Positions 4,378-23,725 of a stretch of DNA of 64,000 nt are shown here, one piece after another. Numbering within the stretch: the stretch's first letter is position 1; the number at the start of each line of letters is the position of its first letter. The notes beneath the pieces were generated by a model that worked only from the letters and a program-made list of their open reading frames with translations, did not search any database and was not told where the DNA came from. The translations under genes were made by a program, and so were the position numbers. The stretch comes from Flavipsychrobacter sp. (GTDB lineage Bacteria; Bacteroidota; Bacteroidia; Chitinophagales; Chitinophagaceae): NCBI GenBank assembly GCA_016786565.1, contig JAEUVY010000049.1:57637-121636 (forward strand), read 5' to 3'.

Positions 4378-5835
4378 ATGAATCTTAATGCTCCCGCTCA
4401 GATTGCCAATTATATAGGTGGCGCACTCGTCGCTCCCGTTGGTGGCAGGTACATACCAAATATTAATCCTGCCACAGGGGAAACTTACAGTCAGACCCCC
4501 GACAGCGACCTGCAGGATGTAGAAGCTGCGGTAGCTGCCGCAAAGGCGGCATTCCCGGCATGGAGTGTCACTCCCGCCGAGGAGCGTTTCCGTTTATTGA
4601 ATCGTATTGCCGAACTGATCGATGCAAATCTGGATGCACTGGCGCTTGCCGAGACCAATGACAATGGCAAGCCGCTCTCACTCAGCAAAAGGGTAGATAT
4701 TCCCCGCGCCTCCAGCAATTTCAGGTTTTTCGCCACCGGCATCATGCATTTCAGCACCGATAGCCATAATATGGAGGATAAGGCCATCAACTACACCCTG
4801 CGTCAGCCGGTGGGCATAGTAGGCTGCATCTCTCCGTGGAACCTGCCTCTCTATCTTTTTACATGGAAGATAGCCCCCGCATTGGCTGCCGGCAATTGTG
4901 TGGTGGCAAAACCAAGCGAGGTTACACCCATGACGGCCTACCTGCTCAGTATTATTTGTCAGGAAGCCGGGCTGCCCGCCGGTGTGCTCAACATATTGCA
5001 CGGCACAGGTCCCGGTTGCGGATCGGCAATGGTAGCCCATCCGTCCATTAAGGCAATTTCATTTACTGGCAGTACCCGCGCCGGTCGCGATATAGCTGCA
5101 ACTGCGGCGCCCATGTTCAAGAAAATATCTCTGGAGCTGGGCGGTAAAAACCCCAACATCATTTTTGCCGATTGCGATTGGGACAAGATGATGCGCACCA
5201 CCATACAATCTTCTTTCAGCAATCAGGGGCAGATATGCCTGTGCGGTAGTCGCATTCTGGTAGAAGAGAGCATCTATGAAAAATTCAAGGAAGAGTTTAT
5301 TGCCCGGGTGAAGAAACTTACCGTTGGCGATCCGCTCGACGAAAACAGCAAACAAGGCGCAGTGGTTAGTAATATGCACTTCGACAAGGTGCGTAGCTGC
5401 ATCGATCTCGCACTTCAGGAAGGGGGTAAGATCCTTACCGGAGGAAATGTAGTGAAATTATCAGGCCGCTGCGAAAATGGCCTGTTCATAGAGCCAACTG
5501 TTATAGAGGGGCTCGGTGCCAACTGCCGCACCAATATGGAAGAGATCTTTGGCCCGGTCGTTACATTGCAGTCTTTTAAAACAGAGGACGAAGCACTGCA
5601 GCTTGCCAATACCAGCGATTACGGCCTTTCCGCAACCATCTGGACACAGGACATCAGCCGTGCTAACAGGGTAGCTGCCAAAGTCGGTAGCGGCATTATA
5701 TGGGTCAATTGCTGGTTACTGCGCGACCTGCGCACGCCTTTCGGCGGTTTCAAGAACAGCGGCGTGGGCCGCGAAGGCGGCTGGGAGGCACTCCGCTTCT
5801 TTACCGAACCCAAGAATGTATGTATCGAATTATAA
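4378..5835 (+). CDS. Aldehyde dehydrogenase, 2-aminomuconate/2-hydroxymuconate semialdehyde type
   Basis: This is an NAD-dependent aldehyde dehydrogenase of 485 residues. Catalytic residues are visible: N155 (SPWNLP), E253 (LELGGKN) and the nucleophile C287 (GQICLCGSR). The motif NCWLLRDLRTPFGG near the C-terminus and CLCGSR are typical of 2-aminomuconate semialdehyde dehydrogenase (kynurenine route of tryptophan breakdown) and of XylG/DmpC-type hydroxymuconic semialdehyde dehydrogenases. The first is more likely in Bacteroidota, where kynurenine-pathway genes are common, but no other pathway gene lies nearby, so the substrate is inferred. ATG 4378 sits 4 nt after a -7 promoter box. A perfect 15-bp terminator begins inside the stop codon. 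Confidence 0.85.
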   Translation: MNLNAPAQIANYIGGALVAPVGGRYIPNINPATGETYSQTPDSDLQDVEAAVAAAKAAFPAWSVTPAEERFRLLNRIAELIDANLDALALAETNDNGKPLSLSKRVDIPRASSNFRFFATGIMHFSTDSHNMEDKAINYTLRQPVGIVGCISPWNLPLYLFTWKIAPALAAGNCVVAKPSEVTPMTAYLLSIICQEAGLPAGVLNILHGTGPGCGSAMVAHPSIKAISFTGSTRAGRDIAATAAPMFKKISLELGGKNPNIIFADCDWDKMMRTTIQSSFSNQGQICLCGSRILVEESIYEKFKEEFIARVKKLTVGDPLDENSKQGAVVSNMHFDKVRSCIDLALQEGGKILTGGNVVKLSGRCENGLFIEPTVIEGLGANCRTNMEEIFGPVVTLQSFKTEDEALQLANTSDYGLSATIWTQDISRANRVAAKVGSGIIWVNCWLLRDLRTPFGGFKNSGVGREGGWEALRFFTEPKNVCIEL

Positions 5836-17751: not shown

Positions 17752-19731
<1,980 letters not shown>

Positions 19732-19867
19732 TTATAAGAAATTTATGTGGACTGCACCGGCAATAGGTCGTGTCAGGAGGCGTGTAGCTTTCCGTTGCGG
19801 CACTACCGGATCTGCAGTTGATTGTTCGTTACAAATAATCGCTATTTGACGGAATTTGCGAACCTTA

Positions 19868-19898
19868 CAAAGATAACCTGAATGCCCCTCTCTGACAA
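19868..19898 (-). promoter_or_regulatory. gyrB promoter (full -33/-7 pair)
   Basis: On the minus strand TTG (19898-19896) and TATCTTTG (19875-19868) are separated by 20 nt, the ideal TTG-N19-21-TAnnTTTG arrangement. Transcription would begin near 19861. Confidence 0.65.
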
Positions 19899-20137
19899 CT
19901 TAATTAATAACATGTGGTGGATAAAAAACTGCATCCAAGACTTGCATTTTGTCGCCAACACATTGCATAATTAACTGCTGCTTGCGCGCCGATGTGCTGC
20001 GCAGGTGCCCGATATTTTTTCTTATTTGCCCGTTTGGGTCGCGTTTTCTCGTGATCTTGTAGATTTATATTGATAATCAATTAGTTAGTGAAATGTTGTT
20101 GGGAGTTTGAACCCAAGGGTGAGCAAAAAATTGCGCA

Positions 20138-20157
20138 CCTGCCTGCCGGCAGGCAGG
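20138..20157. repeat. Perfect 20-bp GC-rich palindrome
   Basis: The inverted repeat is centred on GCCTGCCGGCAGGC and extended by CCT/AGG on each side. From memory, palindromes of this form recur in intergenic DNA of various Bacteroidota, so it is probably a dispersed repeat rather than an operator. Only this copy was seen here. Confidence 0.6.
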
Positions 20158-20161
20158 AAAC

Positions 20162-20223
20162 CTGCGCAGTTGCTTCTCATTTACTTCCCACTTGCTTCCC
20201 AAAAACTGCGCAGTTGCTTCTCA
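20162..20223. repeat. 18-bp direct repeat, two copies 44 bp apart
   Basis: CTGCGCAGTTGCTTCTCA occurs at 20162-20179 and again at 20206-20223. The second copy is preceded by CCCAAAAA. The function is unknown. Confidence 0.6.
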
Positions 20224-20460
20224 CCCATTATCCTAAAAATATTACTAAAAAGTATTATTTAATATTGCCTTTCTGATCTTACATCAAGTTACGCCGGAAG
20301 GGTGGAAAATAGAAGGTGAAAAATCTGTGATACCGCGAAAAGTGCGGTATGGTAAAAAGTTACTGAGGCAAGTGGGAAACACTTGCCCCAAATATTGACC
20401 ATTCGCAGATCAGGAGATCTGCCACCGCTGCGACGTAGTCGGAGACATACGCCGAGCTGG

Positions 20461-20490
20461 GAGTCTCCCCGCTTTTTCTGCGGGGGACTC
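20461..20490 (-). repeat. REP-like palindrome A
   Basis: The minus strand carries the core GAGTCCCCCGC-AGAAAAA-GCGGGGAGACTC, an imperfect stem-loop. It is closely related to copy B over about 54 bp (20460-20513), including the flank GCCGACACCC...ACCGAGGGC, and has the same stem as copies C-E in the opposite orientation. Confidence 0.75.
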
Positions 20491-20649
20491 GCCGACACCC
20501 GCATACCGAGGGCATCCCTTTCCCGAAATATCTGTTTTAATAAATGTGGCAGCGCATGCCGCATACTGTTGGGAATATGATAGTTTTGTTCAAATTAAAA
20601 TTGTTCGAAATTTAATATTTTTCCTAATTAAATAATATCACAATAAAAT

Positions 20650-21771
20650 ATGAAAAAAGTACACTTAATAATCGTTCTATTTGTCGCGATGCTAGCGGCA
20701 TTCAGTTCCTGCAATAAGAAAAAGGAAGAATCGCAGAAGATAAGCCTTGAGAAACTGGGCAATGGAGACCTGAAACCGTCTGTATATGGCATAAGAGGAT
20801 TTAATAAAAAGGGTGCTCCCATCGTTCACCATAGTTTGAATTACCTGTATGAATGGGACGGGACGGCCAAAACTTTCAATAAACTGGGAGGGATAATACC
20901 CAATCCGGCTCAGGCCGCAAACGGACGAATTGTACAGGATGCCCTGGGCAATTACTACTATCATTCGGGAAGTCAGGGTGATGTCTTTATGTTGAATAAG
21001 GCAACCAACCAGTGGGATACTGTGGCAATAGCGCCGGGGTATAAAAACCAGATGATCGCCAACACAAACGGCGACATTCTGGTGTACATAAACAACACCA
21101 CTATTGGTGGGGGCCAGAGCTACTATAAAAAATCTGCTTCGGCTAATAATTGGGTAAAGGTGGTTGATGTTCCTGCAAGCAGCAGCCAGCAAACCGCACC
21201 GCAGTTTTTAAGTAATGACGGTCGCGCGTTTTTTCCGGTTTCAGCCAGTGCAAGCAGCGCTATCGACGGATCGGGATTGTATAATGACGTGGTGTTAAAT
21301 ACCAATACCGGCGCGTTTGAAGTGTTTTATGATAAAGCCGACCCCGACAATCTGGGAGTGCTTGCCGCATACAATTACGAAGGGTTCAACAGTGACTACA
21401 CATCGCCCAATGGCGACTTTTATACACTGGTGCCGGCATCTGTCGGGGCTAAGACCGCTCTGTATAAGATCAGTTCTAAAACGCTGCCTGCTAAGTTTGT
21501 AAAAGTGACTGAGTTCTCTCACCCACCTATTGAAAGCGGTAGTTACGTGACCATACGTGGCTGTAAAGTAAACGAAATGACAGGTGTTATAAAGTACAGG
21601 TCCAGTTGCCAGTTGGGGTCATCATCGCACAAAAATCTTGGTGTGTCTAAAACATCATCTACCGAGTTGACCATGCTGCAGCATGATGGTGTGCAGAATG
21701 AGCTGATAGCCGGTCCTGACGGAACAGTGTATGTTCTGGAATGGGAGGGTTATCTGTACCAGTGGAACTAA
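20650..21771 (+). CDS. Predicted lipoprotein of unknown function
   Basis: The 373-residue product has a lipoprotein signal (MKKVHLIIVLFVAMLAAFSSC, lipobox FSSC), placing it in an envelope membrane. The mature part has short repeated beta-rich units (for example GRIVQDALGNYYYHSGSQGD, NTNGDILVYI, SPNGDFYTLV and GPDGTVYVLEWEGYLYQW) that resemble blades of a beta-propeller. No family could be named. It sits between two REP-like palindromes (A and B) and has its own terminator at 21852-21886. Base composition is more AT-rich than the neighbours, so it may belong to the accessory DNA of this region. Confidence 0.75.
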   Translation: MKKVHLIIVLFVAMLAAFSSCNKKKEESQKISLEKLGNGDLKPSVYGIRGFNKKGAPIVHHSLNYLYEWDGTAKTFNKLGGIIPNPAQAANGRIVQDALGNYYYHSGSQGDVFMLNKATNQWDTVAIAPGYKNQMIANTNGDILVYINNTTIGGGQSYYKKSASANNWVKVVDVPASSSQQTAPQFLSNDGRAFFPVSASASSAIDGSGLYNDVVLNTNTGAFEVFYDKADPDNLGVLAAYNYEGFNSDYTSPNGDFYTLVPASVGAKTALYKISSKTLPAKFVKVTEFSHPPIESGSYVTIRGCKVNEMTGVIKYRSSCQLGSSSHKNLGVSKTSSTELTMLQHDGVQNELIAGPDGTVYVLEWEGYLYQWN

Positions 21772-21851
21772 AATTTTACGTTCAGTTCGGGAATTTGACG
21801 CGGCTCTTGAAGGCTCTTTCGATACCTTGATTTGACGATATAAAAATGCTG

Positions 21852-21886
21852 AAGGGAACATATTGCCACAACAATATGTTCCCTTT
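21852..21886 (+). terminator. Terminator of the 20650-21771 lipoprotein gene
   Basis: A perfect 14-bp stem (21852-21865 with 21872-21885) has a 6-nt loop and is followed by TCTTG. Confidence 0.8.
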
Positions 21887-21949
21887 CTTGTTTTCTGTAC
21901 GGCTGTAATTCTTGATGGTGTTGCATACTACGGAAGTTCCGTCCTCGGT

Positions 21950-21979
21950 GAGTCTCCCCGCTTTTTCCGCGGGGGACTC
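21950..21979 (-). repeat. REP-like palindrome B, upstream of the RAYT
   Basis: The minus-strand core is GAGTCCCCCGC-GGAAAAA-GCGGGGAGACTC, with flanks matching copy A on one side (21980-22001) and, on the other, the ACCGAGGACGGAA tail that resembles AACGACGACGGAA of copies C-E. It lies about 100 bp before the RAYT start, in inverted orientation to the downstream copies. Confidence 0.78.
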
Positions 21980-22078
21980 GCCGACACCCATGCACCGAGG
22001 GCTGATCTCGGCACCCTACGTTGAACTAATTACATGTTCTGTTCGCTGCCCCCGATTATGCGTTATCTTTATTCAACT

Positions 22079-22672
22079 ATGCCTGTAAATAAAGAGCACA
22101 TATTCGATAGTGGCATTTATTTCATCACCTTCACTAACTATAATTGGATTCCCCTATTCCATATCACCAACGGATACGACATCGTTTATAAATGGTTTGA
22201 TACACTTAAAGCGGCCGGTCACAGCGTACTCGGGTACGTAATAATGTCCAATCATGTCCATGCATTGATAGGATACAAAAGCAGCACCAGGAGCATCAAT
22301 ACACTGGTTGGCAGCGGAAAGCGTTTCATGGCATATGATATCGTAGAGAGGATTCAAAAGGCGGGAAACAGTCTCTTGCTGAAAACGCTTGAAGAAGGCG
22401 TGAAACCATCTGAAAAGCGGAGAGGGAAACTACATGAAGTATTTAAGGATTCATTCGACATAAAGCTATGTCGGACGTATAAATTCGTGCAGCAAAAGTT
22501 GGACTACATCCATTCAAATCCTGTGAGTAAGAAATGGTCGCTTGCTGCAGACCCCACTCTGTACGAACATTGTTCCGCAAAGTTTTATACCACCGGCACA
22601 CAAGGCGTATACAATGTGGCTCATGCAAATGATTGGATATTTGAAAACTGGATCGAACTACCGACAGAGTAG
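22079..22672 (+). CDS. REP-associated tyrosine transposase (RAYT, Y1/HUH family)
   Basis: This single-strand DNA transposase-like protein is related to IS200/IS605 TnpA and acts on REP palindromes. The 197-residue protein has the start IYFITFTNYNWIPLF, the HUH metal motif H59-V-H61 in YVIMSNHVHALIGY, and the catalytic tyrosine Y143 in KLDYIHSNPVSKKW. ATG 22079 is chosen because the family fold begins at about residue 10 and a weak -7 box (TATCTTTA, near 22064) precedes it; an earlier ATG at 22034 adds 15 atypical residues. The gene is bracketed by REP-like palindromes: B upstream in inverted orientation and C, D and E downstream. Its last 16 codons are included in a 125-bp tandem duplication (22625-22872). 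The protein looks intact. Confidence 0.9.
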   Translation: MPVNKEHIFDSGIYFITFTNYNWIPLFHITNGYDIVYKWFDTLKAAGHSVLGYVIMSNHVHALIGYKSSTRSINTLVGSGKRFMAYDIVERIQKAGNSLLLKTLEEGVKPSEKRRGKLHEVFKDSFDIKLCRTYKFVQQKLDYIHSNPVSKKWSLAADPTLYEHCSAKFYTTGTQGVYNVAHANDWIFENWIELPTE

Positions 22673-22704
22673 GGCGGCAGCAGCTTCGGTACCTTCATCT
22701 CGTC

Positions 22705-22734
22705 GAGTCCCCCGCAGAAAAGGCGGGGAGACTC
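22705..22734 (+). repeat. REP-like palindrome C
   Basis: The core GAGTCCCCCGC-AGAAAAG-GCGGGGAGACTC lies 32 nt after the RAYT stop codon, inside duplication unit 1. It could also act as the transcription terminator of the RAYT. Confidence 0.8.
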
Positions 22735-22829
22735 AACGACGACGGAAACGCAAATGACTGGATATTTGAAAACTGGCTAGAACAACCGGCAGAGTAGGGC
22801 GGCAGCAGCTTCGGTACCTTCATCTCGTC

Positions 22830-22859
22830 GAGTCCCCCGCAGCAAAATCGGGGAGACTC
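22830..22859 (+). repeat. REP-like palindrome D
   Basis: Same core as C with changes in the loop and right arm (AGCAAAATCGGGGAGACTC), inside duplication unit 2. Confidence 0.8.
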
Positions 22860-22896
22860 AACGACGACGGAAGGGTAGCACGACTAAGGAACTTCC

Positions 22897-23511
22897 TCAC
22901 CCCCAAAGTTTTATCAGTTTGGATGCATCGGTTCCATTGGAAATTGTACTCTTTTCAAATCCGCGATTCTTGATCTGTGCAATATGGGCAGAAACTAATT
23001 CTTTAATGTTCTCAGGGACATTATTGTTCTTCATTGTCACAGACAGAGGGTTGTTTCTGATAGAGTGGGTGCGGCTGCTCTCTGTAAAGAAATAGAATCC
23101 CGCATGAGTAACAGAATTTGATTCGACAGTAATATCAATGTACGCTAAAGCCGGAAATCCATCGATGTGCCCGAAAACGCATTCCTGACTGTAAACGAGC
23201 CAAACGTTGTTGTGCAGTAGCGCTTTTGAGTAAATGCCGTTGTCGAACAGATCATAACTCAGCAAATGTCTTGTGAGTCGCCGCTCCTTGTAAAAGGCAT
23301 ACTGATTGGCAAAAAGCCTGACGAGGAAATTCAATAAAGCAAGGATTGCCAGAACAATCATAGTAACGTTCATTTCCTCTGCAATTTCATTTGCCGGCAA
23401 GGCATTTGAGCGTAGTTTCAGATAATAAACGCCGCAAAGGGTACCCCAAACGAGTACTGAAAAAATGAATTTGTAGAGGATCTTCAGGCGATTGATCTTA
23501 AGAAATTCCAT
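22897..23511 (-). CDS. Membrane protein of unknown function inside the REP array
   Basis: I do not recognise this 204-residue protein. It has two hydrophobic segments (about residues 9-31 and 47-65), then a soluble domain of about 135 residues with beta-rich stretches (NNVWLVYSQECVFGHIDGFPALAYIDITV). The layout suggests an inner-membrane anchor with a cytosolic domain of a YcxB-like or PH-like kind, but this is only a resemblance. It is AT-rich compared with the flanks and sits between an intact REP (D) and a half REP (23575-23588), so it appears to be a passenger or insertion in the repeat array. Confidence 0.65.
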   Translation of the reverse strand: MEFLKINRLKILYKFIFSVLVWGTLCGVYYLKLRSNALPANEIAEEMNVTMIVLAILALLNFLVRLFANQYAFYKERRLTRHLLSYDLFDNGIYSKALLHNNVWLVYSQECVFGHIDGFPALAYIDITVESNSVTHAGFYFFTESSRTHSIRNNPLSVTMKNNNVPENIKELVSAHIAQIKNRGFEKSTISNGTDASKLIKLWG

Positions 23512-23574
23512 TTGCAGATTTCATGTAAGATAAGGGGCTTTTTGTTTCCTACCCCTATTTCAGCGCCGGCACAC

Positions 23575-23588
23575 AAGCGGGGATACTC
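23575..23588 (+). repeat. Half REP palindrome
   Basis: AAGCGGGGATACTC, followed by AACGATGACGGA, equals the right arm and tail of copies C-E. The left arm is missing. This suggests a repeat unit cut by insertion or deletion next to the 22897-23511 gene. Confidence 0.65.
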
Positions 23589-23599
23589 AACGATGACGG

Positions 23600-23711
23600 A
23601 GATATTTGGAAACTGGCGCGAACTGATGGCAGAGTAGGGCGGCAGCAGCTTCGGTGCCTTGATTTCGTCGAGTCCCCCGCAGAAAAGGCGGGGAGACTCA
23701 ACGACGACGGA
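23600..23711 (+). repeat. Third copy of the RAYT-tail/REP unit (REP E core at 23670-23699)
   Basis: It begins GATATTTGGAAACTGGC and ends with the intact REP and ACGACGACGGA, so it matches units 1 and 2 from the RAYT tail onwards but with more substitutions. A short extra copy of GACGACGGA follows (23714-23725). Confidence 0.8.
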
Positions 23712-23725
23712 TAGACGACGACGGA

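Follow-up and report, generated by a model that had tools for sequence, protein, structure and literature searches.

Co-duplication of the end of a RAYT transposase gene with its adjacent REP is not a local oddity: judged by sequence comparison, it is real and recurs across species at both gene ends. It is described here from a window of 64,000 nt, the whole stretch of Flavipsychrobacter sp. DNA that was analyzed, in which a RAYT gene is followed by three repeated units, and from related RAYT loci of other genomes. What is new is a variant of REP/RAYT behavior, not a new kind of system.

The RAYT gene of the window and its repeated units

The features of the locus are as follows (positions in the window).

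20461..20513, minus strand: further REP copy, 91% identical to the upstream REP over 53 nt (blastn of 21901-22060 against 19001-21900)
21937..21998, minus strand: upstream REP (REP_L), in opposite orientation to the downstream REPs and forming the RAYT's left terminal inverted repeat (inverted-repeat search, hairpin)
22079..22672, plus strand: RAYT gene, Y1 HUH endonuclease-like (open reading frame, NF047646 match, invariant alignment columns)
22625..22749, plus strand: unit 1, the RAYT's own 3' end, consisting of the last 48 nt of the gene, a spacer and a REP
22686..22747, plus strand: REP of unit 1 (REP_R), forming an inverted repeat with REP_L
22750..22872, plus strand: unit 2, a tandem copy 93% identical to unit 1, with the tail frame intact up to the stop codon
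22897..23511, minus strand: open reading frame of 204 aa between units 2 and 3, outside the repeat
23572..23600, plus strand: 3' half of a further REP, joined straight to the tail of unit 3
23600..23712, plus strand: unit 3, consisting of the last 37 nt of the RAYT tail, the spacer and a REP (23651-23711)

The RAYT protein matched the NCBIfam family NF047646 (REP_Tyr_transpos) with an E-value of 1.1e-15 and 57.8 bits, below the curated cut-off of 80, and a Pfam search of the protein returned no family at E 1e-3. An HxH motif is located at residues 74/76 and a tyrosine, Y158, within YIHSNP (numbering of the 212-aa open reading frame from 22034); H74, H76 and Y158 are invariant across an 8-sequence alignment of relatives. 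The start codon is most likely at 22079 (MPVNK...), which corresponds to column 16 of the relatives' alignment. Among the best 80 of 418 relatives, the closest named ones belong to Chitinophagaceae.

REP_L forms three inverted repeats with the downstream REPs (61-62 nt, 81-85% complementary), and the outer edge of REP_R at 22747 is both the end of the inverted repeat and the outer breakpoint of the duplication (offset 0). The further REP at 20461..20513 lies ~1.4 kb upstream in the same orientation as REP_L. Downstream of the gene, the preliminary description had recognized three units of tail codons, spacer and REP, and these were confirmed at 22625-22749, 22750-22872 and 23600-23712, the second and third being 93% and 91% identical to unit 1, respectively. 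The 93% applies to 22625-22747 against 22750-22872; for unit 3 the 91% applies to the matching part alone (111 nt), and 23590-23712 is 84% identical when taken in the register of units 1 and 2. Translation also upheld the statement that the tail of unit 2 can still be read to its stop (A-N-D-W-I-F-E-N-W-L-E-Q-P-A-E-stop), and the tail of unit 3 reads I-F-G-N-W-R-E-L-M-A-E-stop. The junction of the partial REP at 23572-23600 with unit 3 is of the same REP-to-tail type as the junction between units 1 and 2. An origin of the units as an assembly artefact is argued against by the divergence of the copies (7-16%) and by the repetition of the pattern in other species. The stretch CCGGCACACAAG at 23566-23577 was considered as a RAYT gene fragment and rejected, as it resembles the REP loops of other loci.

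At E 1e-3, neither Pfam nor NCBIfam has a match to the 204-aa open reading frame between units 2 and 3, and homologues, only 22-29% identical, were found in 3 of the genus's 34 other genomes. An empty-site comparison in these three genomes matched none of its neighboring genes in the window. The reading frame may have inserted into the array, or unit 3 may have moved beyond it.

Recurrence and breakpoint geometry of the duplications

Related RAYT loci were gathered by protein similarity alone from Chitinophagaceae and other Bacteroidota, using a family sample of 394 genomes drawn evenly from a larger group and the best 80 of 418 relatives. Removal of duplicates by identical gene stretches left 93 non-redundant loci; those cut by contig ends were kept, which can only lower the counts. 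A direct repeat comprising a partial gene end and DNA outside it, with the other copy outside the gene, was found in 24 of the 93 loci, in line with the earlier suggestion that co-duplication of the RAYT tail bears on how the family amplifies. A slightly different criterion also yielded 24 loci, with the 3' end duplicated in 16, the 5' end in 12 and both in 4; these include L117, a copy of the whole element (98% over 782 bp). Duplications confined to the flank were present in a further 21/93 loci. When the same test was applied to neighboring predicted open reading frames of at least 100 aa, several of which overlie the RAYT arrays themselves, 16 of 363 were positive (Fisher p = 8e-9 versus 24/93). 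Duplicated sequence touched the 200 nt upstream of the gene in 47% and the 200 nt downstream in 35% of the 43 loci that had 2.8 kb on both sides, and 0-5% beyond 2 kb. Gene-end duplication was found in 1 of 21 distant RAYTs, taken from the same genomes, versus 23 of 91 related loci (p = 0.04); the distant set had stood at 0/20 before L045 (33% identity, tail duplication) was moved to it from the 93, and L043 had been in both sets.

Most of these events look independent, because the copies at any one locus share 82-100% identity, against a median pairwise identity of 52% among the RAYT proteins of the 24 loci, and the inner breakpoints differ. A few pairs of loci (93%, 88% and 81% protein identity) might share one event.

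Breakpoints were compared at 44 locus-sides for which the REP edge was defined independently by the inverted repeat of REP_L and REP_R, with each locus side represented by its shortest duplication spanning the REP. The outer breakpoint lay at a median of 0 nt from the outer edge of the REP, within 5 nt in 25/44 and within 10 nt in 29/44; in 9/44 it overshot the edge by more than 20 nt. Most of these nine belong to multi-copy arrays, the others including L045 (95 nt) and L156 (22 nt). The inner extension was variable, with a median of 50 nt, and often ended inside the gene; head units ended 40-45 nt into the gene in 6 of 12 loci. Duplications extended inward only at 26 locus-sides, outward only at 2, in both directions at 7 and in neither at 9 (binomial test of 26 versus 2, p = 3e-6). 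Read on the strand that carries the tag 5' of the hairpin, the break is just outside the tag, the hairpin is retained, and a variable stretch follows 3' of the hairpin. On this strand the three bases before the inner breakpoint are T-rich (55 T in 38 trinucleotides, compared with 37 +/- 5 after shuffling; 0/2000 shuffles), and the three bases after it are not. Part of this T-richness may be microhomology with the T-rich tag, because local alignment runs through such an overlap.

Since the REPs are inverted around the gene, units at the 3' end carry the last codons of the RAYT and units at the 5' end the first. The preliminary description had treated the gene tail as the special part of the unit, a view that does not hold: the same kind of co-duplication affects the 5' gene end and flanks that are purely non-coding, so the unit appears to be a REP with the DNA on its gene-facing side, in which the codons look like passengers.

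Origin of the units

The reading that we favor, at a probability of about one half, is that the repeats of the window are local duplications of a REP and its gene-facing flank, likely made by the RAYT itself through nicking at the outer edge of the REP and rejoining within the terminal part of the gene. The nick would fall at the outer edge on the strand with the TTCCGTC-like tag 5' of the hairpin, leaving a 5' end covalently attached to the catalytic tyrosine; a 3'-OH within the gene end would then accept the strand or prime synthesis, and the array would grow by whole units. Spread to other sites with codons attached would be only occasional, the usual dispersing form being the REP alone. 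A fixed outer edge, a variable inner end, the involvement of both gene ends and the repetition of whole units are consistent with an enzyme cutting at the edge of the REP and joining that end to nearby DNA. The RAYTs also have the residues needed, which counts for duplications of their making: in a regular-expression search of the 93 loci, an HUH-like motif was present in 92 and YxHxN in all 93. For TnpAREP of E. coli, cleavage at CT located 5' or 3' of the REP and strand transfer have been reported, and both strand transfer and priming of synthesis from a 3'-OH are discussed in the parts of that work consulted (PMC8266576).

Replication slippage or template switching from the REP hairpins, with the RAYT uninvolved and the gene ends copied merely as neighbors of a hairpin, is an unlikely but serious alternative. 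Hairpins destabilize DNA and lead to slippage or template switching with no transposase involved, and the flank-only duplications in 21/93 loci are consistent with such a cause. Likewise, the dispersed REP of L206, which has no RAYT in its 1.1-kb stretch, has undergone a duplication of 99 bp bounded by the same type of edge; this fits action of a RAYT in trans and equally a purely structural cause. The asymmetry of the breakpoints (26 inward-only versus 2 outward-only) argues against slippage, as a plain stall should show no preference for the distal side of a hairpin once that hairpin has been copied. Inverted repeats are, furthermore, present at 13 of 20 distant RAYTs that are free of such duplications (a set of 20 that excludes L045).

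The extra units could instead derive by decay from older, complete RAYT elements, if a second copy that landed or was duplicated beside the first lost its interior by deletion to leave tail-REP or head-REP. Whole elements do occur side by side (L117 and pairs in G184, G221 and G116), internally deleted REP_L-head-tail-REP_R forms were found 2-4.5 kb from a RAYT in G459 and G460 and as L073 in G041, and the ends of an element would account for the fixed outer edge. We nevertheless consider this origin improbable for the units: head and tail pieces are not complementary parts of one gene (in L132 the head is 41 nt and the tail 150 nt of a 588-nt gene), 20 of the 24 loci have only heads or only tails, and short units follow one another head to tail without gaps in L106, L119, L134 and L121, where an 81-bp unit is repeated every 81 bp. 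Strict nested insertion of one element inside another was rejected for the same lack of complementarity between head and tail pieces.

Two of these deleted forms have a distinct layout. L192 (G459:C1:252500-258000) contains at 1188-2008 two tandem internally deleted mini-elements, each made up of REP_L, gene head, gene tail and REP_R, preceded by an extra REP_L-head unit and situated ~1.5-2.3 kb past an intact RAYT. In L194 (G460:C33:4500-11500), REP_L-head is fused directly to tail-REP_R at 5361-5677, forming a MITE-like derivative with ~81% similarity to the intact RAYT, which lies at a distance of 4 kb.

Copies elsewhere were sought in six genomes, namely the window's own (G000) and G290, G459, G460, G461 and G462. 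In G000 (3.82 Mb, 133 contigs), the spacer GGGCGGCAGCAGCTTCGG occurs exactly three times, all at the RAYT locus of the window. A blastn search with unit 1 gave 12 matches, consisting of the three units and nine tail-less REP matches, seven of them on other contigs; this search reports the best piece per match only and alone would make all tail-bearing copies look local. The sequence of one REP on another contig (C110) indicates that it belongs to a fourth, degenerate codon-bearing unit: it is preceded by 39 nt with 79% identity to the RAYT gene end and spacer (blastn, E 5.5e-7 in 1.1 kb), and 14 of the last 18 coding nucleotides agree with the RAYT. The blastn match is the independent evidence for this copy, because C110 was included in the alignment behind sequence model R1; the E-value of 1e-24 obtained with R1 was therefore discarded as proof, C110 being among the four copies from which the model was built. 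In C110 (40343-40475), a 19-nt insert separates the spacer from the REP. A weaker candidate at C55:26044-26147, which was not used in building R1, matched this four-copy model at E 4.8e-5 and shares GAGTAGGGC across the stop codon with the RAYT units; it is a possible fifth codon-bearing unit. The remaining G000 matches consist of the REP, or of the REP and part of the spacer.

Across the six genomes, codon-bearing units lie on the contig of the RAYT and at most ~4.5 kb from it, except for C110, perhaps C55, G459:C15 and matches in G461. The G459:C15 exception is a second RAYT element with 78% similarity. In G461, 11 of the 63 matches outside the RAYT locus, at scattered sites, extend into a stretch alignable to the tail of the RAYT (of 78 first-look candidates 40 were scored, and nine stretches were inspected, eight of them away from the RAYT locus); this stretch is identical to the tail at 18/28 positions and may come from another RAYT. 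L205-L212, on several contigs of G461, form a dispersed REP family in which a conserved stretch starting from ATCTATAAGCAGCTTTAG precedes the hairpin. The other dispersed matches in the six genomes are REPs, or REPs with spacer, and codon-free. Dispersed REPs share the edge seen in the local duplications: seven of the nine tail-less matches in G000 stop no more than 2 nt from it (at query positions 120-125 of 125, compared with 110 and 119 for the remaining two), as do 4/6 in G290 and 1/1 in G462.

The preliminary description had set a mobile unit against local expansion and proposed a search of the genome and its relatives for the spacer and REP. That search did yield a codon-bearing copy away from the RAYT, in C110, but the exact spacer was confined to the three local units and the dispersed REPs were mostly codon-free. 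The two alternatives have turned out to be compatible, as nearly all codon-bearing copies are local and one of the four clear copies in G000 lies elsewhere, with C55 as a possible weaker fifth. That a REP with the RAYT tail is the standard mobile unit, the local units being dispersal landings near home, is very improbable, for although C110, possibly C55 and the 11/63 matches in G461 would suit it, the other dispersed matches in the six genomes are codon-free, save for the paralogous element in G459:C15, and the G461 stretch, at 18/28 identical positions, may belong to another RAYT.

Relation to known REP systems

The locus resembles RAYT/TnpAREP REPtrons (Y1 HUH enzymes related to IS200/IS605) in having a single gene with inverted flanking REPs, dispersed REPs, an HUH motif and a catalytic tyrosine. 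Inverted REPs flank the RAYT of the window, and inverted flanks were detected in 77/93 related loci at E 0.05 and in 37/93 by a stricter test. The core GAGAC is inverted around the gene in 68/82 downstream and 61/82 upstream flanks, compared with 16 and 13 after shuffling (250 nt per side, 93 RAYT loci). The window REPs lack a GTAG tag ahead of the hairpin; read on the strand that has the tag 5' of it, they begin with TTCCGTC, and GTAG occurs solely at the RAYT stop codon, on the opposite side of the hairpin. Despite CGTC at the outer end, the predicted hairpin, with a stem of ~16 bp and a loop of 7 nt, differs from that of CGTC-tagged REPs (8-9 bp stem, 4-5 nt loop). Nor are the units REPINs, as all three have the same orientation and one REP each; the only inverted REP pairs are those that enclose the gene and those of the internally deleted elements in other genomes. 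Unlike in the window clade, duplication of a gene end with its REP is not described in the consulted parts of the papers on REPtrons (PMC2817692, PMC3686654, PMC8266576, PMC3733652, PMC6006769), and no report of such co-duplication was found in the portions consulted of the literature searched, which covered few subscription journals.

In mechanism, the closest parallel to the proposed process is that of IS200/IS605 elements, which, as outlined in PMC8266576, cut outside a subterminal hairpin, make a second cut at a distance and transfer the strand. In contrast to these elements, the second end would here be a variable site in the gene in place of a fixed right end, and the products are mostly in cis.

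Tandem REP or REPIN clusters reiterated together with flanking DNA have been described (Di Nocera 2013, PMC3733652; Bertels and Rainey 2011, PMC3116915), and the same papers, in the parts consulted, place a REPIN cluster beside each of three RAYTs of P. fluorescens SBW25. The window clade shares this reiteration with flanking DNA but differs in that the flank is mostly gene-facing, starts from a fixed outer edge and includes transposase codons at either end. TIRYT/TIRtron elements comprise a RAYT-like gene with ~60-nt terminal inverted repeats, further copies of which form dimers or clusters at other sites (PMC3733652, section 16). Long terminal inverted repeats are likewise present around the gene of the window, and GGGGAGAC in its REP fits GGGGWSAS, a motif stated for some TIRs only; unlike in TIRYT, however, the motif is present in just 8/82 downstream and 5/82 upstream flanks of the clade, and its repeats form genuine hairpins. 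Quentin et al. 2018 (PMC6006769) describe a subclass 2.6 of Bacteroidetes proteins with NH[LIV]H, WQ and YIH[QN]NP and 'atypical secondary structures' that flank the genes and have copies elsewhere. Compared by description only, the window RAYT is similar in host phylum and structured flanks with copies elsewhere, and its motifs, SNHVH and YIHSNP, are near but not identical; the description consulted makes no mention of gene-end duplication.

REPs beside a RAYT have been inferred to mutate and then multiply, a process termed 'orthoswitch' in the section consulted of PMC3686654. We tentatively suggest a one-ended transposition in cis by the RAYTs of this clade, in which they would cut the outer edge of the REP and, on the opposite side of the REP, a T-rich site of flexible position, re-insert the REP and all DNA in between at the REP edge and so build arrays beside themselves; these arrays, including the RAYT's own first and last codons, may be a nursery in which spare REPs diverge before they spread. 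If REPs are first copied locally as REP and gene-facing flank, the copied codons would be a natural tracer of the source RAYT end and of the cut positions. The birth of REPs and the cut sites of RAYTs could then be read from genome sequence, and exact oligonucleotide substrates would be defined, which bears on the amplification of REPs and on the origin of new variants.
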